A stretch of 64,000 bases of DNA from Verrucomicrobiaceae bacterium. GTDB lineage: Bacteria; Verrucomicrobiota; Verrucomicrobiia; Verrucomicrobiales; Verrucomicrobiaceae. Position 1 is the stretch's first letter, and each line of letters opens with the position of its first letter. A program made the translations under genes and the position numbers. The DNA is taken from assembly GCA_021298725.1 (NCBI GenBank), contig JAJTDU010000005.1:1-64000 (forward strand). Direction: 5' to 3'. The notes beneath the pieces are model-generated. The model did not search any database. It was not told the origin of the DNA and was given only the letters and a program-made list of their open reading frames with translations. This document shows positions 2,271 to 48,721 of this stretch, in pieces.

Positions 2271-4602
2271 AGTACTTCTTCTCCATTCTCTGCGTCGTCC
2301 ACGTCTCCTCGGTGCAATCTCAAACTGTGCCGCCGCAGATCGACCAGAGCTGCATCGAGTGCCATGACAAGGAAACCGCCAAAGGCAGTCTTGATCTCAC
2401 CGCGCTGAAGTTTGATCTCGCCGACTTTGCCACCCGCCAGCGTTGGATTCGCATCCACGACCGCGTGGAGAAAGGTGAGATGCCACCGAAGGCCGAAGAT
2501 TTGCCTGCGGAGCAACGCGCCGCCTTGGTGAAGTCGCTCTCAAGTTCGATTCATGCGGTGGATCACGCCGAAGTCATTGCGCATGGCCGTGGGCCTCTGC
2601 GGCGACTGAATCGCGATGAGTATGAGCAAAATCTCCGCGATGTGCTGCAACTCCCGAGCCTCGATATTCGCGACATGCTTCCCGAGGACCGCGAAGGGCA
2701 TCATTTCAACAAGGCCAGCGAGACGCTCGACATTTCGCGTGTACAACTCACGGCCTATCTCGACGCCGCCGAGGCCGCGCTGCGTGCGGCGATGATCACG
2801 GCAGACAAACCGCCACCAGTGACAAAATTCCTTGCTGTCGGCACCAACCTTTTTCCAAGCAACGACACCTTTGGCGAGCGCGCGGCGATGTTCTTCGCGA
2901 AGAACAACCAAGCCATCAACCTTGCCAAGGAAGACGCGAAAAAAGCCACCCATGACGAGCAGATTGAACTCGCGCTCTTCCGCTCCGCGCACTGGCCCTA
3001 CTACGGCTATCCGAAAGGCTTCATCGCGCGGCTGCCGGGAGACTACAAGGTTCGTTTCTCCGCCCGCGCCGTGCTGCAACAAGCCGGCCACAAGCTTGTG
3101 GCAGCCAAACAGGCCGTACCGATGACTTTCCGGGCGCGCAAGCCCTCCGGCCCTGATGTTTCCGGCGATGTCCGCGCCACTGGCGGCATCATGGATGTGC
3201 CACCGGAGAAAACGACCTTTGAGACGATCATCCGCCTGCTTCCCGGCGAGACTTTTGAATACAGCCTGCTCGGCCTGCCCGTGCCGCTCGCCCGCAACGT
3301 CAAAGGCGGTCCGCCGACCTATCGCTACCCTCCGTTCCCCGAAGGAGGACAACCCGGAGTCGCTTTCCAATGGCTGGAAGTGGAAGGACCGATCTCAGCG
3401 GAGACATGGCCGCCGGCGTCACATCGCGTGTTATTTGGCGATTCGCCCACCAACGACGCCAAAGCGCTGTTGCGTCGGTTCGTGAAGCTCGCCGCACGCG
3501 AACCCATCACCGAAGAGACGCTGAAGACGTTCGATGATCTCATCCAGAGCCGTCTCAATGAAAAAGCACCCTTCAACGAGGCCATGCTGGCCGGTTACAA
3601 GGCGTTCCTCTGTTCTGGGCACTTTTTGTATCTGCGCGAGCCGGAGCACGAAGACGATCATTTCGCCATCGCCTCACGTCTCTCGCATTTTTTGACGAAC
3701 ACACGCCCCGATGCCGCTTTGAGCGAGCTGGCAGCCCAAAAGCAGCTTCGCGACGACGCAGTGCTCAAAGGCGAAACCGAGCGTCTCGTCTCCAGCAGCG
3801 GCTTTGAGCGCTTCATTCGCAGTTTCACCGACTACTGGCTCAATCTCCGCCACATCCGCCGCGACGAGCCGGACATCCGACTCTATCCCGAGTATCGCTT
3901 CGATGATTATCTCGTCGAAAGCATGGAGCTGGAGACGCGCGCCTTCGTCACCGCGATGATTCGCGACAACCTGCCCGCCAAGGTGCTTGTGGATGCCGAT
4001 TTCGTCTTCGCCAACGACCGTCTGGCAAAACACTATGCGCTGCCGCCACTCGGCGGCTCGGCGATGCGCAAGATCACGCTACCAAAGGACAGCGCGCTCG
4101 GTGGTCTGCTCACGCAAGCCGCCCTATTAAAAGTCACCGCGAACGGCACCACCACCTCGCCCGTCGTGCGTGGTGCGTGGATCATGGAGCGTCTCGTCGG
4201 CGAACCACCGCCACCTCCGCCCTCCAGCGTGCCGGCCGTCGAGCCGGACATTCCTATCGGGGCTTGGAAGCAGGTGAAAGCATCACTGGGATCGACCGTG
4301 CTGGCCATGATTACACTTACACGCTTGCCGCCCACGTTGATGCCAGCGGCAAGCTGCTGGATGGCCGCAGCTTCCAAAACATTCAGGAACTAAAAGCCTA
4401 TTTGGCCGCCAATCCGCGCCAACTCGCCCACAACCTGCTCCATCAATTCACCATCTACGCCACCGGCACACCCGTGCGCTTCTCGGATCGTCCAGAGGTC
4501 GAGTCGATGCTCGATGCTTGTGCGAAGAATGGCTATCGCGTTGGCGATTTGCTGCACGCGCTGGTGCAGAGCCCGATTTTCCTTGGAGGACAGAAACCAT
4601 GA
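2267..4602 (+). pseudogene. DUF1587/DUF1592/DUF1588/DUF1585 planctomycete-type cytochrome c protein, frameshifted with apparent internal loss
   Basis: N-terminal CIECH haem motif, then family-like sequence to PPPPPPSSVPAVEPDI; the DUF1585-like C-terminus (DASGKLLDGRSFQNIQELKAYLAANP...) is in another frame from about 4250. Confidence 0.8.
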
Positions 4603-5846: not shown

Positions 5847-5899
5847 TGGGGGTTTTGGGGGGGGGATTGAGGGAACGAGTTGGAAAACTCGTTCTGCGA

Positions 5900-42683: not shown

Positions 42684-45600
42684 ATGAAAATAGAAAGCTG
42701 CACGTTTTCCATTTCCTTCATCCTTTCGTCATCATCGGGATCGCCATGGCCAGACGGGTGCGGCGCAGCGCGTCGATGGCGGGCAACCATGGCAGGATAT
42801 TACCATTTTTTGATGGCAATGACACACAGAGGCCGGTCGGCTCGCAGCGTTGGTTTGGAGGTGAACCATCTTCCCATCATCGCCACGACCACTTTCCTGC
42901 TTCTTGCGGGTGAGGCAGCTCTAAGCGCCGATGACCTGTTCTCATCGAAAATCGAACCGCTGCTCAAACAGCGCTGCTTTGAATGCCATTCGCATGAGAA
43001 GAAGATCAAAGGTGGTCTCGCGCTCGATTCGAAGAGCGGCTGGGAAAAGGGCGGGGAGAGCGGCCCGGTGATCTTTCCGGGCAAACCGGAGGCGAGTTTG
43101 CTCATCCAGGCGGTGAGTCATGTGGAGAAGGACCTCAAGATGCCGCCGAAGAAGATGCTGCCTGCATCCGAAATCGCGCTGCTCACCGAGTGGGTGCGTC
43201 AGGGAGCACCTGATCCGCGCGTGGCAGCCCAATCGACCACGCTTGCCGCCGATGATGCCTGGGAAGCGGAGTTTCAGAAGCGTCTCGACTGGTGGAGCCT
43301 CAAACCGATGCGCCCCGCCACCAGCGGAAGCGTGGACGCCTTCATCCAAGCCGCTCAAACGGCCGCCGGACTCGAAATGACTCCGCAGGCCGCGCCGGAG
43401 GTGCTGCGTCGTCGTTTAAGCTTCGTGCTCACCGGCTTACCGCCGTCCGACAGGTCGGACAGGTCCAACCTGTCTGACGATGTCGATCATCTTCTCGCCT
43501 CACCGCACTTCGGCGAACACTTCGCCCGCCACTGGATGGATGTCGTGCGCTACACGGACACCTACGGCTACGAATGGGACAATCCCGCCAAAGGTTCCCA
43601 CGAATACCGCGACTACCTCATCCGCGCCTTCAACGAAGACATCGGCTTCGATCAACTCCTGCGTGAACAACTCGCCGGAGACCTCCTGCCGAAGCCACGC
43701 ATCCACGCGAAGGCGCAGACCAACGAAAGCCTCATCGGGCCGATGTTTTACCATCTCGGCGAGCATCGCCACGGCAGCAGCCTCATGTTCAACGGCATCC
43801 ATCAGGAGATGGTGAACAACAAGATCGACGCCTTCTCGAAGGCCTTCCTCGCCACCACCGTCGCCTGCGCCCGTTGCCACGATCACAAGCTCGAAGCCGT
43901 CTCGCAGCGCGACTACTACGCGCTCGCCGCCATGTTCACCACGCCGCGCTGGACCTCGCGCGTCATTGATGCTCCAGACAAGAACGCCGCCGCCATCGCG
44001 CAGCTCAAACAACTGCGCCAAGGCATCCGCGGTGAACTCGCCGCGCTCTGGACAAGGAAAGGCGCTTTCCAAGCGCCCACACTCAAAGCTTGGGCGGTTC
44101 AAAACCGCCCCTCCTTGGAAAACGCGAAGCCGCAGGACATCGCGTATCCGCTGGCCCGCCTGCTGAATGACACGCTGTGGCTCACACCCCAAAATCTACG
44201 TGCCACAGCACAGCACACGACCTTCATCATCGACAAAGATCACTCCATTCTCGCCACAGGCACCACGCCGGACAAAGACAGCTACACGGTGAACTTCACC
44301 ACCGAGCCAGGCGCAGTCAGCGAGATGCAGCTTGCAGCGCTCACGCATCCCACCTTGCCCGAGCGCGGCCCGGGTCGCACGAATCGCGGCAACTTCGTGC
44401 TCAATGACCTCCGCATCGAATTGAAGCCTCGCCTCGCCGATGGCAGCACGGGCGCAGCGAAGCAAATCAAGCTCGCCACCGCACGCGCCAGCTATGCGCA
44501 GCCCGGCTACGAAGTGGAAGGCCTGCTGAAGCCTGCCACAGGCCGCCGAGGCTGGGCAGTGGGACTCGCACCGCAGAGCATGGATCACACCGCGCGTTTC
44601 ACCTTCACCGAGGCCGTCGAACTACCGCATGGCGGCGACTGGACGATCACGCTGGACCACTCGTATGGCACCGATCATCTGCTGGGGCGCTTCCGCATTT
44701 CGATGGGCCGCGAAGTGGCCTCGACCACCGATGCTGCTCAAACCGCTCGCTGGCAGGAACTGGCCGCCGAATGGCAAAAAGCTCGCGAAACGGCAAAAAC
44801 AAGGAACGGCGCTTTTCAAGCGCCCTGGGCGATCACCAACCGCCCTTCCATGGGTTGGGTCTTTGAAGGCGAAGGCATCGAAAATGGCCAAACCGACGAC
44901 GGCACGCCCCTCATCGCCCTCGGGGGCGAAAACGTCGTCGCAGGCTTGTTGCCGCGTGGCTGGCATTCGCACGCTTTGAGCTCGAAACTGCCCGGAAGCC
45001 TGCGCATGCCGCCGCAGCATCTCGTTCCAGGCAAGTTCGTGAGCCTTAACCTCGCTGGAGGCGAGTTTGGCGGTCATCTCGTCGTCGATGACCACGCCTT
45101 CCAAAACGAAACCATCGCGTTTTACACGAACCCCAAGCCGCATTGGCGCTCCTACACCGACGCCGAGCTAAAAAACGGAGCGCAGCAGGTCACCATCGAG
45201 TTTTGCACCTCCTCGCTGAATCCGAACTTCCCGCCACGCACCGGTTTGGCCAAGGGCCTCAAAAACGACGATTTCGGCCACGACAAACGAAGCTGGCTCA
45301 GCATCACCGGCATCGTCACGCATGACACCGCCGGCACGCCGCAAGATGAACTCGATGCCTTCGCCAGTTTGTATCCCAACCAGGCCGCCACGCCTTGGGA
45401 AAGCATCGCCGCGTGGTTCAATGCCGCCGTGAGCCGCTGGTGCGAAAATAAACCCCTTCCTGGCGACCGTGAAGTGCTCGATTGGCTCATCGCGAATGGC
45501 TTGCTGCCCAACAAAGCTGAATCCAGCACTAAGCTCGCACAATTCATCGCCGACTATCGCCGCATCGAGTCCGGCATCGCCTTCCCACGCACGGTGAACA

Positions 45601-46652
45601 GCATGGACGAGCGCGATGTGATGCCCGTGAAGTATCCGCTCAACGTCCGCGGCAACGTGGACACCACCGGCGAGCTCATTGAGCCCGCCTCAATGAAAAT
45701 GCTGCATGGCGAACGCATCACCAACCGCCTCGCCCTCGCCGAATCGCTGCTGCATCCCGAGCATCCGCTCACCGCCCGTGTCTATGTGAACCGCGTGTGG
45801 CAGTGGATCTTCGGCACCGGCCTCGTCGCCACACCCGATGACTTCGGCCGCCTCGGCGACAAACCCTCGCACCCCGAACTGCTCGACTGGCTCGCCCGCG
45901 AGTTCATCCGCGAAGGCTGGTCCACGAAGCAACTCGTGCGCAAACTCGTGCTCAGTCAAACCTTCCGCCAAGGATCCGGGAACAGCTCAAGGAAGGGCGC
46001 TTTTCAAGCGCCCACGGCGGTTGCAAACCGCCGCTCCTTGGATGTCGATCCCTACAACCGCCGGCTCTCCTTCTACCCCACGCGTCGCCTCGAAGCCGAG
46101 TCCATCCGCGATTCCCTGCTCGCTGTCTCCGGCCAACTCGATCCCCAACTCTATGGCCGCCCCATCCTGCCGCTTCGAACTGCCGAGGACGGCGCCAAGC
46201 GCCTCTTCGCCGGCCCGCTCGACGGCCACGGTCGCCGCTCGATCTACCTGCAAATGTCCATCATGGACCCACCGAAGTTTTTGACAGGCTTCAACCTCCC
46301 CGACCTCAAACTGCCCACCGGCCGCCGTGATGTGACCAACGTGCCCTCGCAAGCGTTGATCATGCTCAATGATCCATTTGTGAATGCCATGGCCAAGGCG
46401 TGGGCGGAGAAGTTGGTGAAAATCGAAAGCAGCGAGGAAGAAGTCGTTCGCCTCATGTTCCGTCAGGCCTATGCACGCGATCCAAGCGATACCGAGCTGC
46501 AACGCTGGCTCAAGGAGGGGCGGTTTTTAACCGCCCAAGGAGGGGCGATTTCCAACCGCCCCGAGGCGCTTGAAAAGCGGCTATCCTTAGAAGGCCTGCA
46601 GGCTCTCGCTCACGCCATCTTCAACACCAAAGAGTTCATCTATTATCGTTAA
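42684..46652 (+). CDS. PSD1 family protein (planctomycete cytochrome C / DUF1549 / DUF1553); start uncertain
   Basis: KQRCFECHSHEKKIKGGLALDSKSGWEKGGESGPVIFPGKPEASLLIQAV, HFARHWMDVVRYTDTYGYEWD, HPLTARVYVNRVWQWIFGTGLVATPDDFG; true start probably near the LPIIATTTFLLLAGEAALSADD signal segment. Confidence 0.93.
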   Translation: MKIESCTFSISFILSSSSGSPWPDGCGAARRWRATMAGYYHFLMAMTHRGRSARSVGLEVNHLPIIATTTFLLLAGEAALSADDLFSSKIEPLLKQRCFECHSHEKKIKGGLALDSKSGWEKGGESGPVIFPGKPEASLLIQAVSHVEKDLKMPPKKMLPASEIALLTEWVRQGAPDPRVAAQSTTLAADDAWEAEFQKRLDWWSLKPMRPATSGSVDAFIQAAQTAAGLEMTPQAAPEVLRRRLSFVLTGLPPSDRSDRSNLSDDVDHLLASPHFGEHFARHWMDVVRYTDTYGYEWDNPAKGSHEYRDYLIRAFNEDIGFDQLLREQLAGDLLPKPRIHAKAQTNESLIGPMFYHLGEHRHGSSLMFNGIHQEMVNNKIDAFSKAFLATTVACARCHDHKLEAVSQRDYYALAAMFTTPRWTSRVIDAPDKNAAAIAQLKQLRQGIRGELAALWTRKGAFQAPTLKAWAVQNRPSLENAKPQDIAYPLARLLNDTLWLTPQNLRATAQHTTFIIDKDHSILATGTTPDKDSYTVNFTTEPGAVSEMQLAALTHPTLPERGPGRTNRGNFVLNDLRIELKPRLADGSTGAAKQIKLATARASYAQPGYEVEGLLKPATGRRGWAVGLAPQSMDHTARFTFTEAVELPHGGDWTITLDHSYGTDHLLGRFRISMGREVASTTDAAQTARWQELAAEWQKARETAKTRNGAFQAPWAITNRPSMGWVFEGEGIENGQTDDGTPLIALGGENVVAGLLPRGWHSHALSSKLPGSLRMPPQHLVPGKFVSLNLAGGEFGGHLVVDDHAFQNETIAFYTNPKPHWRSYTDAELKNGAQQVTIEFCTSSLNPNFPPRTGLAKGLKNDDFGHDKRSWLSITGIVTHDTAGTPQDELDAFASLYPNQAATPWESIAAWFNAAVSRWCENKPLPGDREVLDWLIANGLLPNKAESSTKLAQFIADYRRIESGIAFPRTVNSMDERDVMPVKYPLNVRGNVDTTGELIEPASMKMLHGERITNRLALAESLLHPEHPLTARVYVNRVWQWIFGTGLVATPDDFGRLGDKPSHPELLDWLAREFIREGWSTKQLVRKLVLSQTFRQGSGNSSRKGAFQAPTAVANRRSLDVDPYNRRLSFYPTRRLEAESIRDSLLAVSGQLDPQLYGRPILPLRTAEDGAKRLFAGPLDGHGRRSIYLQMSIMDPPKFLTGFNLPDLKLPTGRRDVTNVPSQALIMLNDPFVNAMAKAWAEKLVKIESSEEEVVRLMFRQAYARDPSDTELQRWLKEGRFLTAQGGAISNRPEALEKRLSLEGLQALAHAIFNTKEFIYYR
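43445..43478. repeat. Small nested palindrome in PSD1 gene, in frame
   Basis: GTCCGACAGGTCGGACAGGTCCAACCTGTCTGAC; encodes SDRSDRSNLSDD. Confidence 0.65.
44053..44118. repeat. RAYT-associated REP pair copy A, in frame in PSD1
   Basis: CAAGGAAAGGCGCTTTCCAAGCGCCCACACTCAAAGCTTGGGCGGTTCAAAACCGCCCCTCCTTGG; 66 bp = 22 codons. Confidence 0.92.
44800..44853. repeat. RAYT-associated REP pair copy B (second hairpin degenerate), in frame in PSD1
   Basis: CAAGGAACGGCGCTTTTCAAGCGCCCTGGGCGATCACCAACCGCCCTTCCATGG; 54 bp. Confidence 0.85.
45988..46041. repeat. RAYT-associated REP pair copy C, in frame in PSD1
   Basis: CAAGGAAGGGCGCTTTTCAAGCGCCCACGGCGGTTGCAAACCGCCGCTCCTTGG; 54 bp. Confidence 0.93.
46511..46590. 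repeat. Compound REP copy D, in frame near the PSD1 3' end
   Basis: CAAGGAGGGGCGGTTTTTAACCGCCCAAGGAGGGGCGATTTCCAACCGCCCCGAGGCGCTTGAAAAGCGGCTATCCTTAG. Confidence 0.85.
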
Positions 46653-46708
46653 CCAAGGAGGGATGCTTTTTAAGCGCCCACAGGCGGTTAAAAAACCGCC
46701 TCTCCTTG
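46653..46708. repeat. REP pair copy E, 5' flank of RAYT
   Basis: CCAAGGAGGGATGCTTTTTAAGCGCCCACAGGCGGTTAAAAAACCGCCTCTCCTTG; starts directly after the PSD1 stop codon. Confidence 0.93.
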
Positions 46709-46717
46709 TTCATCGCC

Positions 46718-47350
46718 ATGTCACCGAAATTCTTCAACCCCTGGCGCGAGATTGATCGCACGCACAACCATCTGCCACATTGGCAGCAGGAAGGTGCATC
46801 GTATTTCGTGACATGGCGGTTGACGGACTCGCTGCCGAAAGCGCTGCTCGATCTGCATTACCACGAGTGCGAGCAGTGGATTCGTTTGCATCCAGTGCCG
46901 TGGGATGAAACGACGGAGAAGGAGTATCACCAGCTCTTCTCCACGCGCATGGATCAGTGGCTGGATCAAGGCCACGGCTCCTGCATTCTACGCACGCCCG
47001 CACACGCAGAGGTCGTGGCGGGCGCTTTGCATCACTTCGAAAGTGAACGCGTGGCTTTGATCAGCTTTGTGGTGATGCCCAACCATGTGCATGTGCTCTT
47101 AACGCTGAAACCCGAGTGGAAGCTGGAGGAAATGATTCACTCATGGAAACGCCACTCCGCCAACGAGATCAATCGCCAGTGTGGCGACACCGGTGCGCTA
47201 TGGATGAAGGACTACTTTGACCGCCTGATCCGTGACCGCGCGCACTTGAACAATTGCGTCCGCTACATCCGTAACAATCCAACCAAGGCCCGACTTCGTG
47301 CTGGGGAATATGCACTCTATGAATCTCCTTTCGCTCAAAGCATCCTCTGA
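46718..47350 (+). mobile_element. REP-associated tyrosine transposase (Y1/IS200-like HUH, RAYT)
   Basis: FFNPWREIDRTHNHLPHWQQEGASYFVTWRLTDSLP, HUH motif VVMPNHVHVLLTL, catalytic Tyr region NCVRYIRNNPTKARL. Confidence 0.93.
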
Positions 47351-48721
47351 CCAAGGAAGGGCGCTTTTTAAGCGCCCAGGGCGGTTGCAAACCGCCCCTC
47401 CCTGTTGCTCCCGCCGCCAAGTTTTGGCCTCCGCTTCCGCAGGATTCGGCATGCTCGCTCTCCGTGCGATGGCCGGGATGCCGCTGCACAATCGCGCACG
47501 AGCCAAGAACATCATCTTCTGCTTCATGGACGGCGGGCCGAGCCATGTGGACACCTTTGACCCGAAATCGATGCTCAAGAAGCACGAGGGCAAGGCCATC
47601 GGTGAGAGCGCGGTGACGAAGCGCTCGCAGTCAAACGCGGGACGCGTGTGGATGGGCAGCCCGTGGAAGTTCAAGCAACGCGGTCAAAGCGGCCTGTGGG
47701 TGAGCGATCTGCTCCCAAATATCGCACAGGTCGTGGACAAACTCTGCGTGGTGCGTTCGATGGTCGGCGAACTGCCTTTGCATGGTCAGCAGAACCTGTT
47801 GCTGCACACCGGACGCATCCTCGGCCAGGCACCGAGCTTTGGCGCATGGGTTTCGTATGGACTCGGCACGGAGAACGCGAACCTGCCCGGCTACGTCGTG
47901 CTCAACAACGACTGGGTGCCCAATGGCGGCCTTGAAAACTTCGGCAGCTCATTTTTACCCGCCAGTCATCAGGCCACGATGGTTCGCGCGAAAGGTGTGC
48001 CAGTCGATAACATCGCGCCGCAGGACGCCGCGACCATCCAGCGCCGCAAACTCGCCTTGCTGGCCGAACAAGACGCCGAATTTGCCGCCAGCACCTCCGA
48101 TGCGCGAGCTATCGAAGGTGCCATCGCGAACTACGAGACCGCCTTCCGCATGCAAAGCGCCGTGCCGGACATCGCCGACATCAGCCGCGAGCCCGAGCAC
48201 ATCCGCAAACTCTACGGTCTCGATTCCACCGACGAACACCAGCGCTTCTACGCCACGCAGGCGTTGCGAGCTCGCCGATTGGTCGAAGCCGGCGTGCGCT
48301 TCGTCGAGATCACCTGCCCCAGTTTTGACGGCAACAACTCCCCCTGGGACCAGCACGGCCTCCTGAAGCAAAACCACGAAAAAAACGCCCGCATCACCGA
48401 TCAAAGCGTCGCCGCGCTCATCACCGATCTCGATCAGCGCGGCCTGCTCGATGAAACCATCGTCCTCTGGGCTGGTGAGATGGGCCGCACGCCGCACACC
48501 CCGAAAATCAGCGCTACGGCGGGCCGCGACCACCACGTAAACGGCTACAGCCTCTTCATGGCCGGCGGCGGCTTCCAAGGCGGCATGACCTTTGGCGAAA
48601 CCGATGAATTCGGCAACGCCGTCGCCAGCAACCCCGTCAGCATCCACGACATCCACGCGACGCTGCTGCATCAAATGTCACCGATGTGCATGGGCGTGTG
48701 ATTGGCGAATTGCTAGGCTGA
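47298..48721 (+). pseudogene. DUF1501 protein, 3' frameshift with apparent loss of about 20 codons; start overlaps RAYT
   Basis: SRRQVLASASAGFGMLALRAMAG...FCFMDGGPSHVDTFDPKSML; ORF ends LLHQMSPMCMGV but the native-like tail TDVHGRVIGELLG* is in the next frame at 48680..48721. Confidence 0.82.
47351..47404. repeat. REP pair copy F, 3' flank of RAYT
   Basis: CCAAGGAAGGGCGCTTTTTAAGCGCCCAGGGCGGTTGCAAACCGCCCCTCCCTG; starts directly after the RAYT stop codon. Confidence 0.93.

Follow-up and report, generated by a model that had tools for sequence, protein, structure and literature searches.

In-frame REP pairs in a PSCyt1-PSCyt2-PSD1 gene next to a RAYT gene, and their distribution in a Prosthecobacter-like genus of Verrucomicrobiaceae

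Introduction

How can palindromic repeats enter a protein-coding gene several times and leave its reading frame open? The question is raised by a stretch of 64,000 nucleotides from a Verrucomicrobiaceae bacterium (assembly GCA_021298725.1, contig JAJTDU010000005.1, positions 1 to 64,000; hereafter the window), in which pairs of repetitive extragenic palindromes (REPs) lie within the gene of a 1322-aa PSCyt1-PSCyt2-PSD1 protein (the PSD1 gene), next to a gene encoding a REP-associated tyrosine transposase (RAYT). The window is part of a fragmented metagenome-assembled genome (3.49 Mb, 82% complete, 289 contigs) from a Prosthecobacter-like genus. A first-pass annotation, made from the letters alone, described four copies (A to D) inside the gene and two (E and F) beside it, and passed over the genus-wide spread of the element, its host and phase bias, the other REP families in the same loops and the published cases in Verrucomicrobia.

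Our preferred explanation, to which we assign a probability of about 0.82, is that the copies are REP pairs resembling REP doublets forming hairpins (REPINs), that they were spread in trans by a RAYT, and that they persist in genes where loops tolerate them and the phase is benign.

Results and Discussion

REP pairs in the reading frame of the PSD1 gene

Copies A to F belong to one family of elements of about 54 nt (18 codons), composed of CAAGGA, hairpin 1 (GGGCGCTT tty AAGCGCCC), a short linker, hairpin 2 (GGGCGGTT nnn AACCGCCC), and TCCTTG. The element shows the features of a REP pair, namely two inverted palindromes, a dispersed multicopy distribution and association with a RAYT, and it is bounded by the terminal CAAGGA/TCCTTG inverted repeat. 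The sequence 5' of the palindrome is AAGGA or GGAG, not GTAG; degenerate 5' tags of REPs have been described (PMC3733652). A covariance model of the element, built partly from the window copies, was searched in 48 genomes of the genus and detected it in 31 of them, with E-values of 2e-15 to 7e-20 for A, B, C, and F, 5e-14 for E, and 8e-12 for the pair inside D.

The positions given for all copies in the first-pass annotation were correct (Table 1), A to D are inside the PSD1 gene, and the 1322-aa frame is open, although the true start is probably downstream of that of the open reading frame (ORF). All three forward frames are open in copies A and C, as had been claimed, and likewise in B. Copies A to C do add related peptides, except that the middle of A is not part of the addition: LKxWA is also present at this place in homologs that lack the element, and LKAWA is therefore native. 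Copy D, counted earlier as a fourth copy of the same set, is present in frame but differs from the others in hairpin number and in phase (KEGRFLTAQ..).

Table 1. Coordinates of the PSD1 gene, the REP copies and the downstream genes in the window
Feature	Position	Strand	Description
PSD1 gene (1322-aa PSCyt1-PSCyt2-PSD1 protein)	42684..46652	+	ORF coordinates; open frame, domain matches
Copy A	44053..44118	+	REP pair, halves around native LKAWA; RKGAFQAP-TLKAWA-VQNRPSL
Copy B	44800..44853	+	In-frame REP pair; TRNGAFQAPWAITNRPSM
Copy C	45988..46041	+	In-frame REP pair in PSD1 loop after TFRQ; SRKGAFQAPTAVANRRSL
Copy D	46511..46590	+	In-frame three-hairpin REP array near C-terminus; KEGRFLTAQGGAISNRPEALEKRLSL
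Copy E	46654..46709	+	REP pair between PSD1 stop codon and RAYT gene; stops in GAFQAP phase
RAYT gene	46718..47347	+	Y1_Tnp, PF01797 E=1.7e-11; HUH motif PNHVHVL, tyrosine motif YIRNNP
Copy F	47352..47405	+	REP pair 3' of RAYT gene; open in QGRALFKR phase with DUF1501
DUF1501 gene	47319..48701	+	Native start codon of relatives missing

Stepwise gain of the copies

Orthologs of the window gene (67-90% identity) were compared in a codon alignment (genomes are denoted by G and loci by L). Those without the repeat DNA lack the inserted peptides, which bears out the proposal that the peptides are lineage-specific insertions. Copies A and B are each common to the window, G011, G057, G067, and G025; copy C is common to the window, G011, and G025, its site being empty in G057 and other homologs; and copy D occurs only in the window and G011. 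At site C, the insert-free relatives read RQDSRKASDVDPYNR or RQSGLVTDAARERDP, and the close relative G057 has TCA AGG AAG GCC TCC GAC in place of the window's TCA AGG AAG GGC GCT ... CGC TCC TTG GAT. The topology of the gene tree, (G067_AB,(G057_AB,(G025_ABC,(WIN_ABCD,G011_ABCD)))), with 98-100% bootstrap, gives the order of gain as A and B, then C, then D.

Since the genome is fragmented and incomplete, the host gene might be a decaying pseudogene or an assembly artefact. This is extremely unlikely, as the separate assembly G011 (90% identity) has the same arrangement and the frame is also open in the other insert-bearing species.

Two further observations were made on individual copies. In the G025 ortholog of copy C (L126, 3276-3329), a T-A stem pair is changed to A-T on both sides and the hairpin is kept. 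At locus L145 of G047, which belongs to a different genus, hairpin 1 of the window REP lies exactly at site A, without a clear hairpin 2 (3737-3802).

The A, B, and C loops also hold elements in the genome G008, which branches far outside the window lineage with insert-free lineages between. Its copy B looks separate and has a left junction different from that of the window, and at site C the proportion of synonymous differences (pS) between the window and G008 is 0.08, compared with 0.55 in the flanks. Shared ancestry with the inserts of the window lineage is unlikely from the gene tree, and the simplest reading of the sequences is that the G008 inserts are probably independent hits on the same loops. 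The G008 copies are 3-5 bases apart among themselves, versus a mean of 7.4 to the orthologous copies, and homogenisation by gene conversion is possible.

Hosts and phase in the genus

We classified 120 distinct copies, taken from loci around model hits in the 48 genomes and from GTDB pattern hits, with a Markov model of codon position, for which 229 ORFs served as the training set. In-frame positions within genes accounted for 46 copies, 5 were placed between same-strand frames or at the edge of one (not open), and 69 were elsewhere. The family is thus not mainly extragenic as expected of REPINs, in-frame intragenic copies being a large minority and four of the six window copies lying in the PSD1 gene. 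Clear gene truncation was seen once: at L131 (G000:C144, 3068-3120), a single REP hairpin follows the N-terminal domain of an hsdR fragment and the frame ends soon after, a probable REP-linked truncation.

The copies are not independent events, and orthologs were merged by hand into 27 sites in 24 genes, so that both site independence and host counts are manual judgements. The PSCyt1/PSCyt2/PSD1 family, a large group of exported cytochrome-like proteins, provided 15 of the 24 host genes (P below 1e-12; two assignments, L300 and L318, are based on flanking peptide motifs only). Because PSD1 genes, at 20-86 per genome, make up an estimated 3-6% of the sequence, this share is far above chance. 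These hosts are mostly hit at either of two positions that recur, the PSCyt1-PSCyt2 linker (HWSFKPL-PRRGAFQAPSAVENRRSL-DAFID) and the PSD1 loop after TYRQ. The other in-frame hosts encode MutS, a sulfatase, DUF7133 proteins, and Ser/Thr kinases. The compared sites mostly showed no clean insertion that had left the host DNA intact; in linkers and MutS, native sequence was replaced rather than purely added to.

Most hosts are paralogs, two homologous positions recur, and the G008 copies look homogenised, all of which would fit a spread of the inserts among PSD1 paralogs by gene conversion, or by duplication of insert-bearing genes, in place of RAYT transposition. We regard this as quite unlikely, because inserts also occur in the MutS, sulfatase, kinase, and DUF7133 genes, and because the PSD1 hosts are only 35-50% identical in amino acid sequence whereas the insert DNA has a median identity of 83%. 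In addition, the orthologous PSD1-family genes L110 (G032, 3086-3139) and L122 (G010, 3081-3134) have the REP pair at one and the same linker site, inverted in one gene relative to the other.

A single phase, [PST]-R-x-G-x-[FL]-Q (PRKGAFQAPxAVxNRRSL), is shared by 22 of the 27 sites, a bias with P of about 1e-6 against the open-frame frequencies of non-coding copies. We rejected a target-phase effect as its main cause: CAAGGA in genes is mostly in another phase and is in the favoured insert phase in only 21 of 288 cases, so such an effect would oppose the observed bias.

The first-pass annotation had also singled out one loop base. In the GAFQAP phase, E and F read GCT TTT TAA, and A, B, and C read TTC or TTT followed by CAA. 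The contrast is present at these five copies but is weak as a coding-specific mark, since the third loop base is most often C outside genes as well (C in 40 and T in 14 of 68). The tally of this base that had been suggested found T in none of the 40 in-frame RxG-phase copies (Fisher p = 0.002, orthologs counted separately). Stops are avoided, yet C is no coding mark because it is the default outside genes; the absence of T in the RxG phase is what stop avoidance by selection would give, and not a special coding version. In MutS, in-frame copies do have the loop T, which does no harm in their KEGRFLSA phase, and the loop T of copy F gives no stop in the QGRALFKR phase.

Structure of the inserts and selection on the peptide

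Residues 130-1322 were modelled with AlphaFold2 (50-sequence alignment; mean predicted local distance difference test score, pLDDT, 78.7). In the model, B is in a lower-confidence loop, and C and D fall mostly in stretches with pLDDT under 50 (model 971-985, 1157-1168); A is confidently modelled around the native helix. The ratio of nonsynonymous to synonymous differences (pN/pS), calculated from few sites, was 0.31 at site A and 0.7-0.95 at B and C.

These values bear on whether the RKGAFQAP..NRRSL peptide has been domesticated and is actively favoured by selection, e.g., because it serves exported proteins as a flexible linker or a binding tag. The phase bias, the retention through several speciations, the reuse of the same loops, and the low pN/pS at A point in this direction, whereas the higher ratios at B and C and the unrelated peptides, or none, in homologous loops speak against it. 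We consider domestication unlikely.

Other palindromes in the same loops

Among homologs without the window element, other in-frame palindromes are often present at the same loop in three gene families, with peptides such as TRSGGILPPQ, RTSFPTRS..TNELENS, STGFQPV, and KVASALAESLRLKPQSL. Palindromes (hairpin z below -2.5) were found in 26 of 60 linkers of homologs versus 18 of 475 control windows (p=2e-16). Two of the loop families match REP arrays at other RAYTs, GAACGAGTTTTCCAACTCGTTC at G000:C134 and GAGGGATCATCTTGATCCCTC at G029:C29 and G000:C2, which together with the window family makes three RAYT/REP systems. For the remaining loop palindromes, no RAYT partner was found in the data examined, in which linkage worked for three families.

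Loop palindromes could also arise de novo by short-range template switching, their resemblance to REPs being secondary. Loops are indel-prone, and in the MutS gene of G013 (L170) one arm seems to have been made on the other as template, only one arm being conserved in relatives. As three palindrome families are dispersed and clustered around their own RAYTs, and the window family occurs in 31 of the 48 genomes, this explanation is very unlikely. A somewhat less unlikely one, though still doubtful, is that several RAYT/REP systems act as a loop-diversifying source for exported PSD1-family proteins and MutS, with phase and peptide kept by selection.

The MutS loop after SLEVVPSLKTLL is itself a hotspot (L115 in G020, L301, L148-L171), where all inserts are in frame; two species carry the window REP family there, and other species hold at least five unrelated palindromes. 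At L170, the loop holds a perfect palindrome of which one arm is conserved in relatives and the other appears newly complementary, which suggests template switching. Another REP family (GAACGAGTTGGAAAACTCGTTC) is present in the window at 5873-5895, where it closely follows the stop codon of an adenosylhomocysteinase-like gene, as extragenic REPs classically do; its cognate RAYT appears to be that at G000:C134.

The RAYT cassette and the DUF1501 gene

The RAYT gene encodes an IS200-like Y1 domain with HUH and tyrosine motifs and is REP-flanked by copies E and F. Its orthologs in G011 (82%) and G020 (70%) are both flanked by the same REP. This adjacency supports the earlier suggestion that the neighbouring RAYT is the probable mobiliser.

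At the empty site of the cassette, relatives read CGCTGACATGATCCCACACGACCATCGCCAATGC, which includes the DUF1501 start codon; in the window and G011, E-RAYT-F replaces about 27-30 nt including this ATG. The DUF1501 frame is open through copy F back to ATGs in the RAYT tail. Since the native start codon is missing, ribosomes may now initiate DUF1501 within the RAYT tail and read on through copy F. Copy F, treated earlier simply as a copy outside PSD1, is indeed outside that gene but lies in an open frame with the DUF1501 N-terminus.

Mechanism and counter-evidence

Taken together, these results suggest the following course for RAYT-spread REP pairs. RAYT transposases would move REP pairs in trans to many places, and purifying selection might then act as a filter, so that intragenic copies would persist almost only where they fall in variable loops or inter-domain linkers that tolerate extra residues, and are translated in a benign phase. 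A 54-nt unit of 18 codons, often open in several phases, would suit such persistence, and the PSCyt1/PSCyt2/PSD1 family, with its long variable linkers, is the main sink. The gene in the window gained A and B first, then C, then D; the peptides would be nearly neutral. Insertion is often accompanied by loss of adjacent native linker, and the RAYT cassette itself replaced the start codon of the next gene.

Several points weigh against this explanation. No transposition was observed, and RAYT activity is deduced from adjacency. The junctions are often replacements and not clean insertions, and recombination may contribute. Several linker palindromes are without a RAYT partner in the data, and some, such as that in the MutS loop of G013, may arise by template switching. 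The closeness of the G008 copies to one another, greater than to the orthologous ones, fits independent insertion and gene conversion equally. Lastly, site independence was judged by hand.

The locus offers a case of selfish palindromes entering proteins stepwise, with a resolved gene tree, empty sites, an adjacent candidate mobiliser, and parallel insertions in one family. With it one can test how mobile repeats survive in coding sequence, whether selection acts on the phase, and whether the inserts serve a use or are neutral. It also cautions that what is taken for evolved protein sequence in the variable loops of these proteins may be repeat DNA.

Comparison with known systems

In-frame REPs in Verrucomicrobia are already known. 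Intragenic GTAG/CGTC REPs were reported in 2013, with Opitutus terrae having the largest number of the GTAG type (Di Nocera et al. 2013, PMC3733652). As in our genomes, singles and dimers lie inside ORFs and encode about 20-30 aa, the families are RAYT-linked, some genes have two inserts, and two Xanthomonas recB genes are hit at about the same site. In that report, however, DNA-repair genes are prominent and most REPs are intergenic, whereas in our genomes most host genes belong to the PSD1 family, a single phase prevails, the gains can be placed in order on the gene tree, and several RAYT/REP families share loops. A search of open-access papers (main text without supplements) found none describing what we consider new, i.e., PSD1 as main host, the phase bias, tree-ordered gains, parallel loop hits, and several RAYT/REP systems sharing loops.

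The likeness to Rickettsia palindromic elements drawn in the first-pass annotation is apt, as the window family is also inserted in frame in unrelated genes. According to the part of a review that treats them (PMC10969869), those elements (Ogata et al. 2000, 2002), which predate the 2013 report, are in-frame palindromic repeats in unrelated proteins with a recognisable added peptide. They are about 150 bp long and their mobiliser is not named in that part, in contrast to the 54-nt element and REP-flanked RAYT described here. The likeness is one of behaviour and does not place the window element in their sequence families. In its inverted REP doublets and associated RAYT gene, the window family also resembles the REPINs of Pseudomonas (Bertels and Rainey 2011, PMC3116915); those were studied in extragenic space, whereas about four in ten of the classified copies of the window family are coding.

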